DNA of 64,000 bases, taken from NCBI RefSeq assembly GCF_946902915.1, contig NZ_CAMPPY010000003.1, positions 62,001 through 126,000 of the forward strand. Reading direction: 5' to 3'. The DNA is from Streptococcus sp. Marseille-Q5986 (GTDB lineage: Bacteria; Bacillota; Bacilli; Lactobacillales; Streptococcaceae). The notes beneath the pieces are model-generated. The model saw only the letters and a program-made list of their open reading frames with translations. It had not been told where the DNA came from and ran no database searches. The position numbers and the translations under genes are program-made. Shown here one piece after another: positions 21,783 through 58,755 of this stretch (its first letter is position 1; every line of letters starts with the position of its first letter).

Positions 21783-23546
21783 ATGAAACCTGAAAAACCT
21801 AAAAAGCTAGGTTTTAGGAAGATTTACTATAACTTAGATAAAATACTATTTCTATTTTTCTTGATTTTCATGATGGTAGAGTTTGTTTGGCTACCATTAA
21901 ATTCATGGATTGCTGGTATCCTTTTGAGACAAACAGGTTACTTGTTTATCTCCTATAATAACTTTTGGGCGATTATACAAGGCTCGCCTTTTATCAGTTT
22001 AGCTTTTCTCGTTTTAATAGCAATCAATCTTTTAGTGGCTTATTTTCAAATCTGTCTTTTGTTCATCGGGGCGCGTCACCTTCTCTACCATGAAAAGAGA
22101 ACCCTGATTGAATATAGTCGAAAAGTCTTTCACCAGAGCTTTCTATTTGTCAAACGATTGAGCTTTTGTAAGATGGCCTTTGTCTTCTTTTATGTAGCTC
22201 TACTTTTTCCTTTTATTAGGAAAATTTTAAAAATCTACTATCTCAATAAGATTATTATCCCCGATTTTATCGTTACATACCTAGAAGATAAGAACTGGCT
22301 GGTAGGACTCTTGATCATAGCATCCGCTTGGATCTTTCTCTACATTTCTGTTCGCTTCATGTTTGCCCTTCCTAAGATTTTCTTTGAAAGAAAGACAGTA
22401 AGAGAAAGTGTGAAATATAGTCTCCAAAAGACGAAGAAAAATGTCCTTTTCTTCTCTTGGCATCTCCTACTCATTATCATTAAAACCTATCTCTTCTTTT
22501 TTGTCTTGTTAATTCCCTTGCTCTTTGCTCAGGCGGTAATGGATAATTTTACTCAAAAAGAATCCTTGATTCTTGGTGTGATTAATTTTATCTTGATTAA
22601 AAACCTCCATTACATGACTCTGACTTATTTCCTAGTGAAGTTTGTTTCCCTCCTGACAGGAGGAGAGTTGGAGATCATGCCAAGGCGAAAGAAAGACCAT
22701 TTGATGAGGTGGGGAGTCATGGGGTGTGCAAGTATCTTCTTTGCTTTAGAAGGTTACATCTATCTGGAGTCTCCGGATACCAATACACCTTTAGTGATTT
22801 CACACAGAGGAGTAAGTAACAAAAATGGTGTTCAAAATACGGTACAGTCTTTAGAAAAGACAGCCCAACTAAAACCAGACCTCATCGAGATGGATGTGCA
22901 GGAAACGAAAGACGGTCAGTTCGTGATGATGCACGACGCTAACCTCAAATCGCTAGCAAGAATTAATGCTACACCGCAAGACTTAACTCTGGATGAATTA
23001 ACCAATACAGATATTTACGAGAATGGTTATCAAACAAAGATTTCAAGTTTTGATGATTATTTAGAACGCGCAAATGCATTAAACCAAAAATTGCTGATTG
23101 AGATTAAAACCAGTAAAAAAGATAGTCTGCAAATGATGGACCGTTTCCTTGAAAAGTATGGAACGACAATCAAGAAATATGGCCACCAGATGCAGTCACT
23201 AGACTATCATGTGATTGATAAGGTCTTGGCTTATGATTCTGAAATTCCAGTGTACTTCATCCTACCATATAATAGTGTGTTTCCAAGAACCAAGGCGACT
23301 GGTTATACCATGGAATATTCAACTTTGGATGAATACTTTGTCAATAAACTTTGGACAACAGATCAGAGACTATATGTTTGGACTGTGAATAGTTCTGAGT
23401 CTTTTGATAAGGCAGTCAGACTTGGAGCAGATGGCATGATAACGGATGATCTTGAAATGGTCCAGTCACAAGTCACAATGGCTCAAGACGATCCGGAATA
23501 CACGGAATTACTCTTAAAGAAAGCAATGGAATTCTTTGATTTCTAA
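21783..23546 (+). CDS. Membrane glycerophosphodiester phosphodiesterase
   Basis: 587 residues. The N-terminal ~330 residues hold about seven or eight transmembrane segments (the GDPD membrane domain). The C-terminal ~250 residues are the GDPD barrel: VISHRGVSNKNGVQNT, DLIEMDVQETKDGQFV with the metal-binding Glu/Asp, MMHDANLKSL, and the late LLIEIKTSKK. Such proteins hydrolyse glycerophosphodiesters, possibly lipid or teichoic-acid breakdown products, at the cell surface. ATG 21783 is preferred over GTG 21777 because TAGGAG lies 5 bases before it. Confidence 0.88.
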   Translation: MKPEKPKKLGFRKIYYNLDKILFLFFLIFMMVEFVWLPLNSWIAGILLRQTGYLFISYNNFWAIIQGSPFISLAFLVLIAINLLVAYFQICLLFIGARHLLYHEKRTLIEYSRKVFHQSFLFVKRLSFCKMAFVFFYVALLFPFIRKILKIYYLNKIIIPDFIVTYLEDKNWLVGLLIIASAWIFLYISVRFMFALPKIFFERKTVRESVKYSLQKTKKNVLFFSWHLLLIIIKTYLFFFVLLIPLLFAQAVMDNFTQKESLILGVINFILIKNLHYMTLTYFLVKFVSLLTGGELEIMPRRKKDHLMRWGVMGCASIFFALEGYIYLESPDTNTPLVISHRGVSNKNGVQNTVQSLEKTAQLKPDLIEMDVQETKDGQFVMMHDANLKSLARINATPQDLTLDELTNTDIYENGYQTKISSFDDYLERANALNQKLLIEIKTSKKDSLQMMDRFLEKYGTTIKKYGHQMQSLDYHVIDKVLAYDSEIPVYFILPYNSVFPRTKATGYTMEYSTLDEYFVNKLWTTDQRLYVWTVNSSESFDKAVRLGADGMITDDLEMVQSQVTMAQDDPEYTELLLKKAMEFFDF

Positions 23547-23547
23547 G

Positions 23548-23580
23548 AAAAAAAGAGAAACAGATGTTTCTCTTTTTTTG
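23548..23580. terminator. Bidirectional terminator between the GDPD gene and ybaB
   Basis: Stem AAAAAGAGAAA/TTTCTCTTTTT serves the convergent genes on either side. Confidence 0.85.
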
Positions 23581-23584
23581 TGGA

Positions 23585-23884
23585 TTAGAAAGGCAATTTT
23601 CCTGCGAAAGCACCGAGTTTCTTCTTAGTTGTTTCGTCAATTTGTTCAAGTGCAGCGTTAACCGCTTGCACAGTCATGTCAGAAAGGGTTTCGAGATCTT
23701 CTGGATCTACAACTGCGGGGTTAAAGTCAATGCCGACCACTTTCTTATCACCAGTTAGGGTTGCTTGGACAAGGTTCTGAGCTGATTTTCCAACAAATTC
23801 CATGGCAGCGAGTTCTGCTTGGCTTTGCTCCATTTGTTTTTGAAGTTTTTGTGCTTGGCGCATCATGTTTTGCATGTTCATCAT
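23585..23884 (-). CDS. ybaB: YbaB/EbfC nucleoid-associated protein
   Basis: 99 residues, the usual size. N-terminal [20 protein letters not shown], the central [16 protein letters not shown]-like region (here [19 protein letters not shown]) and [14 protein letters not shown]-like C-terminal helices (here [13 protein letters not shown]) are family hallmarks. YbaB/EbfC dimers bind DNA and often lie near dnaX/recR; here the gene stands alone, convergent to the GDPD gene. An AAGGAAAC ribosome site precedes the ATG. Confidence 0.92.
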
Positions 23885-36465: not shown

Positions 36466-36783
36466 ATGAATAGAGAAGAAGTAACATTGTTAGGTTTTGA
36501 AATCGTAGCCTATGCTGGCGATGCTCGTTCAAAACTATTGGAAGCTTTAAAGGCTGCTGAAACTGGTGATTTTGAAAAAGCGGACGCTCTGGTAGAGGAA
36601 GCTGGTAGCTGTATCGCCGAGGCTCATCACGCGCAAACAAGTCTATTAACTAAGGAAGCTTCAGGTGAGGACTTAGCTTATAGTGTAACCATGATGCATG
36701 GCCAAGACCACTTGATGACAACCATCTTGTTAAAAGATTTGATGCACCACTTAATCGAACTCTACAAGAGAGGAGTTAAATAA
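36466..36783 (+). CDS. lacF: PTS lactose-specific IIA component
   Basis: 105 residues, an all-helical trimeric IIA of the lactose/cellobiose family. The phospho-acceptor His lies in [37 protein letters not shown] is the typical start. Its stop overlaps the lacE start by 1 base (TAATG). Confidence 0.95.
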
Positions 36784-38474
36784 TGAATAGACTAATTGCA
36801 TTTATTGAGAAAGGAAAACCTTTCTTTGAGAAATTATCTCGTAATATCTATCTTCGTGCTATTCGTGATGGTTTCATTGCAGGTATGCCTGTTATTCTCT
36901 TCTCAAGTATCTTTATCTTGATTGCTTTTGTACCAAACTCATGGGGCTTTAAATGGTCTGATGATGTTGTTAATCTCCTCATGAAACCTTATAGCTATTC
37001 TATGGGTATTCTAGCTCTCTTGGTAGCTGGTACAACAGCTAAGTCATTGACCGACTCAGTAAACCGTAGCATGGAGAAAACCAATCAAATCAACTATATG
37101 TCAACATTGTTGGCAGCAATTGTTGGTTTGTTGATGTTGGCAGCTGATCCTATCGAAAATGGCCTAGCTACTGGATTCTTGGGGACAAAAGGTTTGCTTT
37201 CAGCCTTCCTTGCTGCCTTTGTTACCGTAGCCATCTATAAGGTTTGTGTTAAGAACAACGCCACTATTCGTATGCCTGACGAAGTTCCACCAAATATCTC
37301 ACAAGTCTTTAAAGATGTGATTCCATTCACTCTATCAGTGGTTTCTCTTTATGCTCTTGATTTGCTAGTTCGTCATTTTGTTGGAGCCAGCGTTGCAGAA
37401 TCAATCGGTAAATTCTTTGCTCCACTCTTCTCTGCTGCTGATGGCTATCTAGGTATTACCATTATCTTTGGTGCCTTTGCCTTCTTCTGGTTTGTTGGTA
37501 TTCATGGTCCATCTATCGTTGAACCTGCTATCGCAGCTATTACCTATGCCAATGCCGAAGTCAACTTGAATCTTCTTCAACAAGGGATGCACGCTGACAA
37601 GATTCTTACTTCTGGTACACAAATGTTTATCGTTACCATGGGTGGTACTGGTGCGACACTGGTTGTTCCATTCATGTTCATGTGGTTAACAAAATCGAAA
37701 CGTAACCGTGCAATCGGACGTGCTTCAGTAGTTCCAACTTTCTTCGGTGTAAATGAACCAATCTTGTTTGGTGCACCACTTGTATTGAACCCAATCTTCT
37801 TCATTCCATTTATCTTTGCTCCAATTGCAAACGTATGGATCTTTAAATTCTTTATTGAAACTCTTGGAATGAACTCATTTACTGCTAACCTACCATGGAC
37901 AACACCAGGTCCACTAGGTCTAGTTCTTGGAACTAACTTCCAAGTTCTATCATTCATTCTTGCTACCCTTCTTATCGTGGTTGACGTAGTCATTTACTAT
38001 CCATTCCTTAAAGTCTATGATGAACAAATTCTTGAAGAAGAACGTTCAGGTAAGTCTAATGATGAATTGAAGGAAAAAGTTGCTGCAAACTTCAACACTG
38101 CAAAAGCAGATACTATTCTTGAAAAAGCTGGTGTAGAAGCAGCACAAAATACAATCACTGAAGAAACAAATGTCCTCGTTCTCTGTGCTGGTGGAGGGAC
38201 AAGTGGTCTCCTTGCAAATGCTTTGAACAAGGCAGCTGCAGAATATAATGTTCCTGTGAAAGCAGCAGCAGGTGGCTATGGTGCTCACCGTGAAATGTTG
38301 CCAGAGTTTGATTTGGTTATCCTTGCTCCTCAAGTTGCTTCAAACTTTGAAGATATGAAAGCAGAAACAGATAAACTTGGTATTAAACTTGCCAAGACAG
38401 AAGGCGCTCAATACATCAAATTAACCCGTGATGGAAAAGGTGCTCTAGCATTTGTACAAGCTCAATTCGATTAA
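36783..38474 (+). CDS. lacE: PTS lactose-specific IICB component
   Basis: 563 residues. The IIC domain (about 1-410) has roughly ten membrane helices and the conserved substrate-site region [21 protein letters not shown] linker (about 415-460) leads to a IIB domain with the phosphocysteine in [18 protein letters not shown]. It imports lactose as lactose-6-phosphate for LacG. The final codons are included in the 124-bp tandem repeat that follows. Confidence 0.96.
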
Positions 38475-38710
38475 CGATAGGGACTGTGAAACAGTCTCCT
38501 CTCGTTACGGAAATCGCTATGGCGAATTTCCTAATCGCCTTGTTAATTCGTCGGTAAAAAGATATCGTTTTTACCTCCTCATGTCACAATTCGATTAATA
38601 ATAGGGACTATGAAATAGTTTCCTCTCGTTACGGAAATCGCTATGGCGAATTTCCTAATCGCCTTGTTAATTCGTCGGTAAAAAGACATCGTTTTTACCT
38701 CCTCATGTCA
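38463..38710 (+). repeat. Two tandem copies of a 124-bp structured repeat
   Basis: Copy 1 is 38463-38586 and copy 2 is 38587-38710, about 95% identical (6 differences). Each has three hairpins: GACTGT-GAA-ACAGTC, GGAAATCGC/GCGAATTTCC and GGTAAAAA/TTTTTACC. Copy 2 changes the first stem to GACTAT/ATAGTT, which keeps pairing. The unit begins in the last codons of lacE, so copy 2 carries a duplicate of that tail. It may belong to a mitis-group intergenic repeat family such as SPRITE; I cannot confirm this. Confidence 0.85.
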
Positions 38711-38729
38711 CAATTCTGTGACTTGGTAC

Positions 38730-38781
38730 AAAAAGTGAGATGGAGAAGGATGCCTCACTGACTCCTCTCCTCTCACTTTTA
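38730..38781 (+). terminator. Long terminator-like hairpin between lacE and lacG
   Basis: AAAAGTGAGA/TCTCACTTTT (10 bp) enclosing GGAGAAGGA/TCCTCTCC, followed by a T-rich ACTTTATTTA. It would reduce read-through into lacG unless relieved. Confidence 0.7.
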
Positions 38782-38803: not shown

Positions 38804-40219
<1,416 letters not shown>

Positions 40220-57593: not shown

Positions 57594-57626
57594 GCTTTAA
57601 GTATAGCATAAAGCAGGCTATTGTGC

Positions 57627-57632
57627 TATACT
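57627..57632 (+). promoter_or_regulatory. queT promoter -10
   Basis: TGC-TATACT about 23 bp before the riboswitch. The -35 is unclear. Confidence 0.6.
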
Positions 57633-57652
57633 AGTAAGGTTGAATAAAGCAA

Positions 57653-57711
57653 CCCTTGGTGCTTAGCTTCTTTCACCAAGCATATTACACGCGGATAACC
57701 GCCAAAGGAGA
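57653..57711 (+). promoter_or_regulatory. preQ1-II riboswitch
   Basis: CTTGGTGCTTAGCTTCTTTC ACCAAGC, then ATATTACACGCGG..CCGCC..AAAGGAG matches the class II preQ1 riboswitch (COG4708 RNA) of streptococci. The terminal AAAGGAG is the queT ribosome site, so bound preQ1 would hide it and lower translation. Confidence 0.95.
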
Positions 57712-57715
57712 AAAG

Positions 57716-58225
57716 ATGAAAAAATTAACTATTCGTGATGTTGCAGACATTGCAATTGTTGCTGCTATTTATGTCGTTTTGACTGTCACACCGCCCCTAA
57801 ATGCCATTAGCTATGGTGCTTATCAGTTTCGTATTTCAGAAATGATGAACTTTATGGCTTTTTACAATCCTAAGTACATCATCGGAGTTACCATCGGTTG
57901 TATGATTGCTAATTTCTTTAGCTTCGGACTGCTAGATGTCTTTGTTGGTGGTGGATCAACCCTAGTATTCCTTAGTTTAGGTGTTTGGCTTTTTGCAAAA
58001 TATAGTAAGGATTACCTCTTTAACGGATTGATTCGAAAAGATCATTTCTTCTTTTCAATCCTCTTTTCAATTTCTATGTTTACTATCGCTGCAGAGTTAA
58101 ATATTGTAGCAGAATTACCATTCTTCCTTACTTGGTTCACAACAGGGATCGGTGAATTTGCCTCATTGATTATTGGAGCGATTATCATTGGTAAAATTGG
58201 TCGTCGAATCGATTTAAGCAAATAG
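57716..58225 (+). CDS. queT: Queuosine-precursor transporter QueT
   Basis: About 169 residues, COG4708/QueT S-component of an ECF-type vitamin transporter, importing queuosine precursors such as preQ1. Five to six hydrophobic segments include IAIVAAIYVVLTVTPPLN and the GGGSTLVFLSLGVWLF helix. The preQ1-II riboswitch directly upstream supports the substrate. ATG 57716 is fixed by AAAGGAG at the end of that riboswitch; an upstream in-frame ATG lies inside the riboswitch. Confidence 0.95.
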   Translation: MKKLTIRDVADIAIVAAIYVVLTVTPPLNAISYGAYQFRISEMMNFMAFYNPKYIIGVTIGCMIANFFSFGLLDVFVGGGSTLVFLSLGVWLFAKYSKDYLFNGLIRKDHFFFSILFSISMFTIAAELNIVAELPFFLTWFTTGIGEFASLIIGAIIIGKIGRRIDLSK

Positions 58226-58324: not shown

Positions 58325-58397
58325 GCTGATTTAGCTCAGTTGGCAGAGCGCATCCATGGTAAGGATGAGGTCGCCGGTTCAATCCCGGCAATTAGCA
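58325..58397 (+). tRNA. tRNA-Thr (anticodon GGT)
   Basis: Acceptor GCTGATT pairs with AATTAGC; D-loop AGCTCAGTTGGCAGAGC; anticodon stem CATCC/GGATG with loop ATGGTAA; T-arm GCCGGTTCAATCCCGGC. The anticodon is GGT, reading ACC/ACU. Confidence 0.96.
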
Positions 58398-58505: not shown

Positions 58506-58511
58506 AGTAGT

Positions 58512-58652
58512 TGCGATGAGTCGATAGGTAATCTTCGGATTACTATTGAGCATAAGGAGGCCATAACGCAGGAGCGGACCTTGATGAGTTGTGTGAACCT
58601 GCTCATCACATGAAGATGCCTCTTAGTCCCTGGTCAATGACTAGGGATTTTT
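58512..58652 (+). ncRNA. asd RNA motif (structured small RNA)
   Basis: A 140-base structured RNA between a strong promoter and an intrinsic terminator (TCCCTGGTC/GACTAGGGA, TTTTT at 58627-58652). It contains GGTAATC-TTCG-GATTACT and a large second domain (AGGAGGCCATAACGCAGGAG ... CCTGCTCATCACATGAAGAT GCCTCTT). Position upstream of asd in a streptococcus matches the described asd RNA motif of lactic acid bacteria, whose function is unknown. The terminator means asd itself probably starts from its own TATAAT (58705). Confidence 0.8.
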
Positions 58653-58755
58653 AATTTTCAGAAAATATAACCCCAAAATGCTTTTCAATTTCTGGAAAAA
58701 GTAGTATAATACATATATTATAGAAATTTTTAGAAAATTCCGAAAGAGGTTGCTT

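Follow-up and report, generated by a model that had tools for sequence, protein, structure and literature searches.

Streptococci of the mitis group carry the small intergenic repeats BOX, RUP and SPRITE, which fold when transcribed. They number 125, 110 and 30 in one genome, and hardly any occur outside S. pneumoniae and S. mitis (PMC3049150). SPRITE consists of one 18-bp hairpin with a U tract, 28% GC and AAAA/TTTT ends (PMC3049150). The REP and BIME elements of enterobacteria are short interspersed palindromes that lie mostly downstream of genes, occur in dimers and groups, and vary widely in number between species (PMC3733652). REPs of the GTAG and CGTC kinds are single palindromes of 20-40 bp with the tag unpaired at one end, the CGTC type also lacking a dedicated RAYT, and the part of PMC3733652 used here names no Firmicutes among the REP superfamilies. 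The L17 downstream element (RF01708) is a structured, potential 3' UTR element of Lactobacillales, and ScRE and sanguinis-hairpin are Streptococcus candidate motifs of doubtful RNA status, listed without an Rfam number in Table 1 of PMC2864571.

The window, a 64,000-nt stretch of Streptococcus sp. Marseille-Q5986, contains two units of a palindromic repeat family of about 105-125 nt per unit, which is old and interspersed in Streptococcaceae genomes. The preliminary description had suggested a SPRITE-like family, a suggestion that does not hold: the unit has three hairpins and a closing helix, no T tract after hairpin 3, 40% GC and CAATTC..CAATTC ends. BOX, RUP and SPRITE have nearly a two-species range, whereas the present family is genus-wide. 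BOX and RUP are rejected on this range (254 of 284 Streptococcus genomes) together with nine matches among at most 16 candidates scored in a genome taken as S. pneumoniae (G160), the sets being told apart by description. The family behaves like REPs in lying downstream of genes, mostly in the transcribed orientation, and in forming arrays. It falls outside the REP superfamily definition of tagged single hairpins of 20-40 bp, since the unit spans 105-125 nt with several helices, although GTCG follows hairpin 3 in many copies. No RAYT is linked to it, and its anchoring lies within a few nucleotides of the stop codon. RF01708 differs in having one host gene, and no scanned locus matches it in the Rfam scans.

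Architecture of the lac units

Two 124-nt direct repeats of 95% identity stand head-to-tail at 38463-38586 and 38587-38710, between lacE and lacG. The repeat search agrees with the preliminary description, which had given two copies of about 95% identity with six differences. The features of the region are as follows.

36783-38474, + strand: lacE, lactose PTS EIICB, the upstream host gene (NCBIfam TIGR00394 and TIGR00853)
38463-38586, + strand: unit 1, a 124-nt folding unit beginning within the last lacE codons (repeat search, MFE fold, covariance model match 38507-38589, 106.3 bits)
38463-38473, + strand: 5' arm of helix P0, CAA..CGATTA, formed by the last lacE codons and the first two bases of the stop TAA at 38472-38474 (MFE fold, P0 complementarity across the family)
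38474-38505, + strand: hairpin 1, variable, with five of the six copy differences (copy comparison, MFE fold)
38507-38531, + strand: ACGG and hairpin 2 (alignments A1 and A2, model R1)
38532-38552, + strand: conserved linker with the P0 3' arm (TAATCG..TTG), overlapped by the P4 5' arm (TTGT, 38540-38543) (core alignment, P0 test, model R1, MFE fold)
38553-38575, + strand: hairpin 3, with ATATCG in the loop (alignment covariation, model R1)
38576-38589, + strand: conserved tail TCCTCATGTCACAA with the P4 3' arm (ACAA), overlapping the start of unit 2 (alignment A2, model R1)
38587-38710, + strand: unit 2, tandem copy, 95% identical, with a weaker fold (repeat search, model match 38631-38713, 105.1 bits, z -1.36)
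38731-38780, + strand: separate long hairpin shortly 5' of lacG (fold z -3.1)
38813-40219, + strand: lacG, 6-phospho-beta-galactosidase, the downstream gene (NCBIfam TIGR01233)

In each unit, helix P0 closes hairpins 1 and 2, and a conserved linker, hairpin 3 and the conserved tail complete the structure. P0, which was absent from the earlier list of hairpins, pairs the 5' end (CAA..CGATTA) with TAATCG..TTG behind hairpin 2 in the MFE fold of copy 1, and encloses hairpins 1 and 2. The linker TTG is common to P0 and P4. The duplication takes in the lacE tail, as had been noted, because CAATTCGATTAA holds the 5' arm of P0, so that the repeat is one folding unit. CAATTC repeats lie on both sides of the lac unit, and the core GC is 0.40 and 0.41 in the two copies.

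The copies differ at 38475, 38476, 38486, 38492, 38496 and 38563 (copy 1 numbering). In hairpin 1, 38486 (G to A) stands opposite 38492 (C to T) and 38496 (C to T) yields a G-U pair; 38563 lies within the hairpin 3 loop. These four were correctly described before, while 38475 and 38476, whose change from CG to TA makes the base of hairpin 1 less stable in copy 2, had been left undescribed. Copy 1 folds better than its shuffles (z -4.0, 1 of 200 equally good), copy 2 hardly so (z -1.4, 22 of 200). Folded together, the two reach z -6.2 for the + strand and z -8.0 for the - strand, which indicates structure beyond chance with an energy that is not specific to the transcribed strand. A terminator function of hairpin 3 is rejected, since the terminator scan called none there; no terminator-like T tract follows it.

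By eye, the minus strand of copy 2 shows a frame some 36 codons long that has a Shine-Dalgarno-like start; its ATG is ATA in copy 1. The hairpin at 38731-38780, in which the scan likewise called no terminator, could be an attenuator upstream of lacG; similar sequence is also present in genomes without a unit in the lacE-lacG gap.

Distribution of the family

A covariance model (R1, 83-nt core) was built from the aligned cores of 13 units at lac, grpE and dnaK, in which 95.4% of cells are paired, against 81.5% in shuffles and 29-54% when slid. With at most 16 candidates scored per genome, R1 matches occur in 254 of 284 Streptococcus genomes (E 0.01) and, at E 0.001, in 265 of 335 Streptococcaceae genomes from 3 of 10 genera. 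The preliminary description had considered a mobile element family and proposed a genome search for the unit; these matches, and relatives after grpE and dnaK, place the unit in an interspersed family. Match numbers reach 95 in G035 and 101 in G200 (E 0.05). At four loci of G035 (L095, L101, L106 and L113), the unit lies within a longer repeat, which runs on into GTGCGGACG.AAGC beyond a GTCGTTAA-like tail.

The window's own genome has eight matches at E 0.05 and nine at E 1. By gene names read from translations, two units follow lacE, one follows dnaK, a tandem pair follows prfC, one follows argS and one lies between carA and carB; opposite to the genes, one lies upstream of pnp and one between two pyruvate dehydrogenase genes. 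A weak core-model match in the window, at 23540-23618 on the - strand (17.3 bits, E 0.029), is possibly a relic.

In a DNA search, 103 of 284 Streptococcus genomes have units of the lac type or diverged relatives of them. Among 46 fetched lac-type loci, some from the same genome, lacE and lacG flank the unit in 44; the other two lie at contig ends in a single genome, with one gene each in view. The remaining six fetched loci are diverged relatives behind grpE or dnaK, assigned by gene calls for L002, L033, L034 and L044 and by the same flanking letters for L038 and L045. By short motif patterns, lacE-lacG loci have no unit in 17 cases, one in 12, two in 18 and three in 11 (58 loci, three genomes counted twice). 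Both genes are in view in 17 of 19 fetched lacE-lacG loci of other genomes, and all 17 lack a unit. Their gaps are short (101-108 nt, measured from the last four codons of lacE to the start codon of lacG), and LacE, read from DNA, ends in FEE, FEK or FEQ, not FD. The flanks of these 17 loci have diverged too far for a target duplication to be proved.

The pair 38486-38492, taken in the preliminary description as compensatory, does face across hairpin 1. In 75 distinct lac-type units, collected by the same kind of motif patterns, it is G-C in 28, A-T in 8, G-T in 4 and non-standard in 35. Taken alone, this pair does not establish selection on structure; as evidence it is weak, because it is unpaired in 35 of the 75. 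Hairpin 1 of L042 (unit 2090-2213) is the exact reverse complement of that of L028 (unit 1501-1624), GATAGGAGACTGTTTTACAGTCCCTATC against GATAGGGACTGTAAAACAGTCTCCTATC, perhaps through an arm inversion by template switching.

Position relative to stop codons and host genes

In 20 further genomes, 147 R1 matches fall into 101 sites, of which the first 80 in sorted order were read and the other 21 left out. Gene context was taken from a simple longest-ORF caller, and host genes were grouped by C-terminal similarity. Units are in sense between codirectional genes at 51 of the 80 sites, antisense at 9, between convergent genes at 11, between divergent genes at 6 and inside a called ORF at 3. At 65 sites the unit is preceded by a gene in its own direction. 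The core begins 31-42 nt past the stop codon of that gene at 36 of them, with 20 cases at precisely 40 nt and 9 at 41 nt. These anchored sites comprise 29 of the sense class and 7 of the convergent class, span 15 host genes, and follow TAA (32 of 36) or TGA (4 of 36).

P0 begins about 0-3 nt after the stop codon at anchored sites. In a shorter class, pyrF, infB and lacE, it extends into the stop codon (for infB, pairing by eye). At pyrF the coding and linker arms of P0 differ together, being AACTCGT/ACGAGTT in one genome and AATGCGT/ACGCATT in another. Counting only the first site of each host gene, 12 of 30 are anchored. The expected share is 8.3% when every TAA, TGA and TAG of the same gap counts as a possible anchor (P = 2e-6) and 14.4% when TAA alone does (P = 5e-4). 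In this sample, 15 of the 30 host genes have no anchored copy.

The 80 sites show no comparably sharp peak of distance to start codons or to opposite-strand genes, 4 of 20 of the latter ending 8-18 nt from the right edge of the core. The left edge is AAC in 15 of 44 non-anchored sites, and many copies have GTCGTAA or a similar right edge. Host genes named by NCBIfam are nrdE, prfC, obgE, argS, dnaK, pheS, corA, pyrF, groEL, polC, infB and parE, together with two ABC transporter genes and one mannose-type PTS gene; the names come from one representative each, scanned over its last 229-250 residues, and several fall below the curated cut-off.

The ratio of sense to antisense units is 51:9 in the 20 genomes and 15:12 in G035 (Fisher p 0.006), where 28 loci from the best-scoring matches were sampled and the 15 and 12 counted by hand. 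The sense bias is thus probably not a fixed property of insertion. The 5' parts of units at the same host gene in different genomes have a likeness of 0.615, against 0.420 between different genes and 0.463 for another gene of the same genome, and none of 2000 permutations gives so high an excess. Many positions are therefore probably inherited.

Turnover is visible in the arrays, which differ between related genomes. At argS, 18 of 20 fetched loci are readable, and in all 18 a unit, whole or partial, immediately follows the stop codon, so that no empty site occurs among them. The argS arrays vary in size between a single truncated unit and several units; judged by eye, their hairpin modules look recombined at conserved joints. 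A Y1 transposase (Y1_Tnp, PF01797) is present in 7 of 12 genomes, is absent from three with 13-15 matches and has six copies in one without a match. It is rejected as the mover, having no relation to copy number in the 12 genomes.

Covariation of the paired regions

An alignment of 131 matches from 71 loci (A3, 124 distinct rows) was fitted to the model and is hence biased towards it. In A3, each of the 20 modelled pairs shows at least one two-sided change. Of its 2416 cells, 91.5% are paired, while shuffles reach 62.6%. The covariation that the preliminary description had asked for is present in these further sequences: the paired columns covary family-wide in this model-fitted alignment, with a score of 0.708, compared with 0.170 in shuffles and 0.015-0.153 when slid. 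The helix kept least often is P4, with 73.7% of cells paired. The stems are rewritten, and by eye the single-stranded motifs ACG, CTA, TTACTAA-TC and GTCGTAA tend to persist. A strong P0 helix (score at least 6) forms in 74 of 167 units, compared with 17.6 when the 5' ends are re-paired among units.

If selection acts on RNA, G-U should be more readily tolerated than A-C on the transcribed strand. Hairpins 2 and 3 of A3 jointly hold 28 G-U and 31 A-C cells, and P4 holds 21 and 63 (shuffled expectation 32 and 71). With arms defined by Watson-Crick pairs only, the counts of G-U and A-C are 12 and 16 in hairpin 3, 0 and 22 in hairpin 2, and 63 and 28 in hairpin 1, the last uncorrected for relatedness. 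For the asd RNA of this genus the counts are 20 and 5; its structure was predicted with a program favouring G-U. In hairpins 2 and 3 and in P4, G-U is no commoner than A-C, so that mobility at the DNA level is a live rival. The missing excess and the inverted hairpin 1 of L042 suggest that part of the covariation may reflect template switching or DNA-level constraint. Of the selection on RNA structure suggested in the preliminary description, the structured, covarying repeat stands, and the step to RNA is uncertain.

Comparison with known RNA families

In the window, no Rfam family covers the units at gathering scores, and no fitting family is found in L001, L002, L033 and L034 (up to E 5) or in 19 further loci (up to E 0.5). 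The sole Rfam match over a unit is an M-box in L034, at 19.2 bits against a cut-off of 44. The family was not found described in the literature searched, where the part of PMC4448216 used here contains nothing relevant to it. An overlap with ScRE and sanguinis-hairpin of PMC2864571 is possible; they could be partial sightings of this family.

Below-threshold matches to the Streptococcus sRNA SSRC8_2 (Streptococcus sRNA 8) occur near grpE-dnaK, dnaK-dnaJ and nrdE (L033:1762-1852, L034:3449-3552 and 1057-1149, L382:1992-2087), and may represent a second interspersed family near the units. Elsewhere in the window, a preQ1-II riboswitch (57622-57718), a tRNA (58325-58397) and an asd (MarS) RNA (58511-58653) reach their gathering scores.

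Discussion

The reading tentatively favoured here, nearly an even call, is that of a REP-like palindromic family whose units are kept in sense as 3'-end elements that shield the upstream frame from exonucleases. The family would have originated as non-autonomous palindromic mobile DNA, as would the REP elements of E. coli, on which work concerning stop codons is reportedly due to Liang and Deutscher. It would have spread as mobile DNA in some lineages and elsewhere persisted mainly in sense at gene ends, copies landing directly behind a reading frame being retained. The fold would form behind the terminating ribosome and block the 3'-to-5' exonucleases PNPase and RNase R, so that the upstream frame outlives the downstream one. 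Behaviour of the REP kind includes stabilising upstream mRNA or halting ribosomes close to the stop codon. By analogy with REPs, the units probably protect the upstream frame; in the lac operon, lacE and the genes preceding it would be favoured over lacG, with tandem units as added redundancy. The wide range of the family, the covariation, the P0 excess, the anchoring, the sense bias, the likeness of units at the same gene, the two-arm change at pyrF and the 18 of 18 occupied argS loci argue for this reading. Against it stand the lack of a G-U excess in hairpins 2, 3 and P4, the 15 of 30 hosts without anchoring, the units that are antisense or between divergent genes, and the failure to find a mover. 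The preponderance of TAA (32 of 36 anchored stops) also counts against it and would likewise follow from insertion targeted to TAA.

That last point leads to an account in which the units are palindromic DNA with purely selfish behaviour, unlikely on balance but substantial. A non-autonomous element would be moved as folded single-stranded DNA and inserted beside TAA; stop codons would be tolerated TAA sites, and two-arm changes would arise by template switching on the hairpin instead of RNA selection. The account is made possible by the missing G-U excess in near-pure Watson-Crick stems, the preference for TAA, and the TAA-like edges, with AAC on the left of 15 of 44 non-anchored sites and GTCGTAA-like sequence on the right. 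The reverse-complemented hairpin 1 of L042, the roughly 100 matches in G035 and G200, the G035 sample without clear orientation bias, and the 17 loci of other genomes with no unit in the lacE-lacG gap point the same way. It has to contend with an anchoring that exceeds the all-TAA expectation, though less strongly than that from all stop triplets, with the sense bias in 20 genomes and with recurrence at the same genes. The lack of a sharp peak at start codons and opposite-strand genes also speaks against it, although 4 of 20 such genes end close to the right edge. That the repeat is just a recent tandem duplication local to the lac operon, with no broader significance, is scarcely credible: the flanking CAATTC repeats could seed slippage and loci vary from one to three copies, yet relatives occur at many other genes, and matches in 254 of 284 genomes rule it out.

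Two readings assign the units a part in sensing translation, and both are improbable. The units may be a new class of stop-codon-anchored 3'-UTR RNA, modelled as a three-way junction whose closing helix abuts or enters the stop codon. It would fold only without a terminating ribosome, so that decay or downstream expression tracks termination traffic, with P0/P4 exchange as the switch. Rated lower still is a regulatory RNA that reads termination through competition of P0 and the stop codon with the ribosome, its linker pairing either with its own 5' end (P0) or with the 3' end (P4) and so switching downstream translation or decay. The latter is consistent with the start of P0 at, or its entry into, the stop codon, with the TTG that both P0 and P4 of the lac unit use, with hosts such as prfC, infB, obgE, argS, pheS, dnaK and groEL, and with the G-U excess in hairpin 1. 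It is opposed by hosts that lack a common pathway, by 7 of 36 anchored units that face a convergent gene and thus have nothing downstream to regulate, and by P4, the least kept helix, where A-C exceeds G-U.

In conclusion, a family present in 254 of the 284 genomes searched was found neither by Rfam scans of 23 loci and the window nor in the literature searched. It also carries a caution: one two-sided change in a hairpin does not amount to RNA selection, as stems may be rewritten at the DNA level. If the units do form a new class of stop-codon-anchored RNA, the genes responding to termination traffic would include prfC, infB, obgE, argS, pheS, dnaK, groEL, nrdE and lacE. The point at which the units start with respect to stop codons brings a long-standing question within reach of a test: whether palindromic repeats lie immediately downstream of genes through insertion preference or through selection on mRNA 3' ends.
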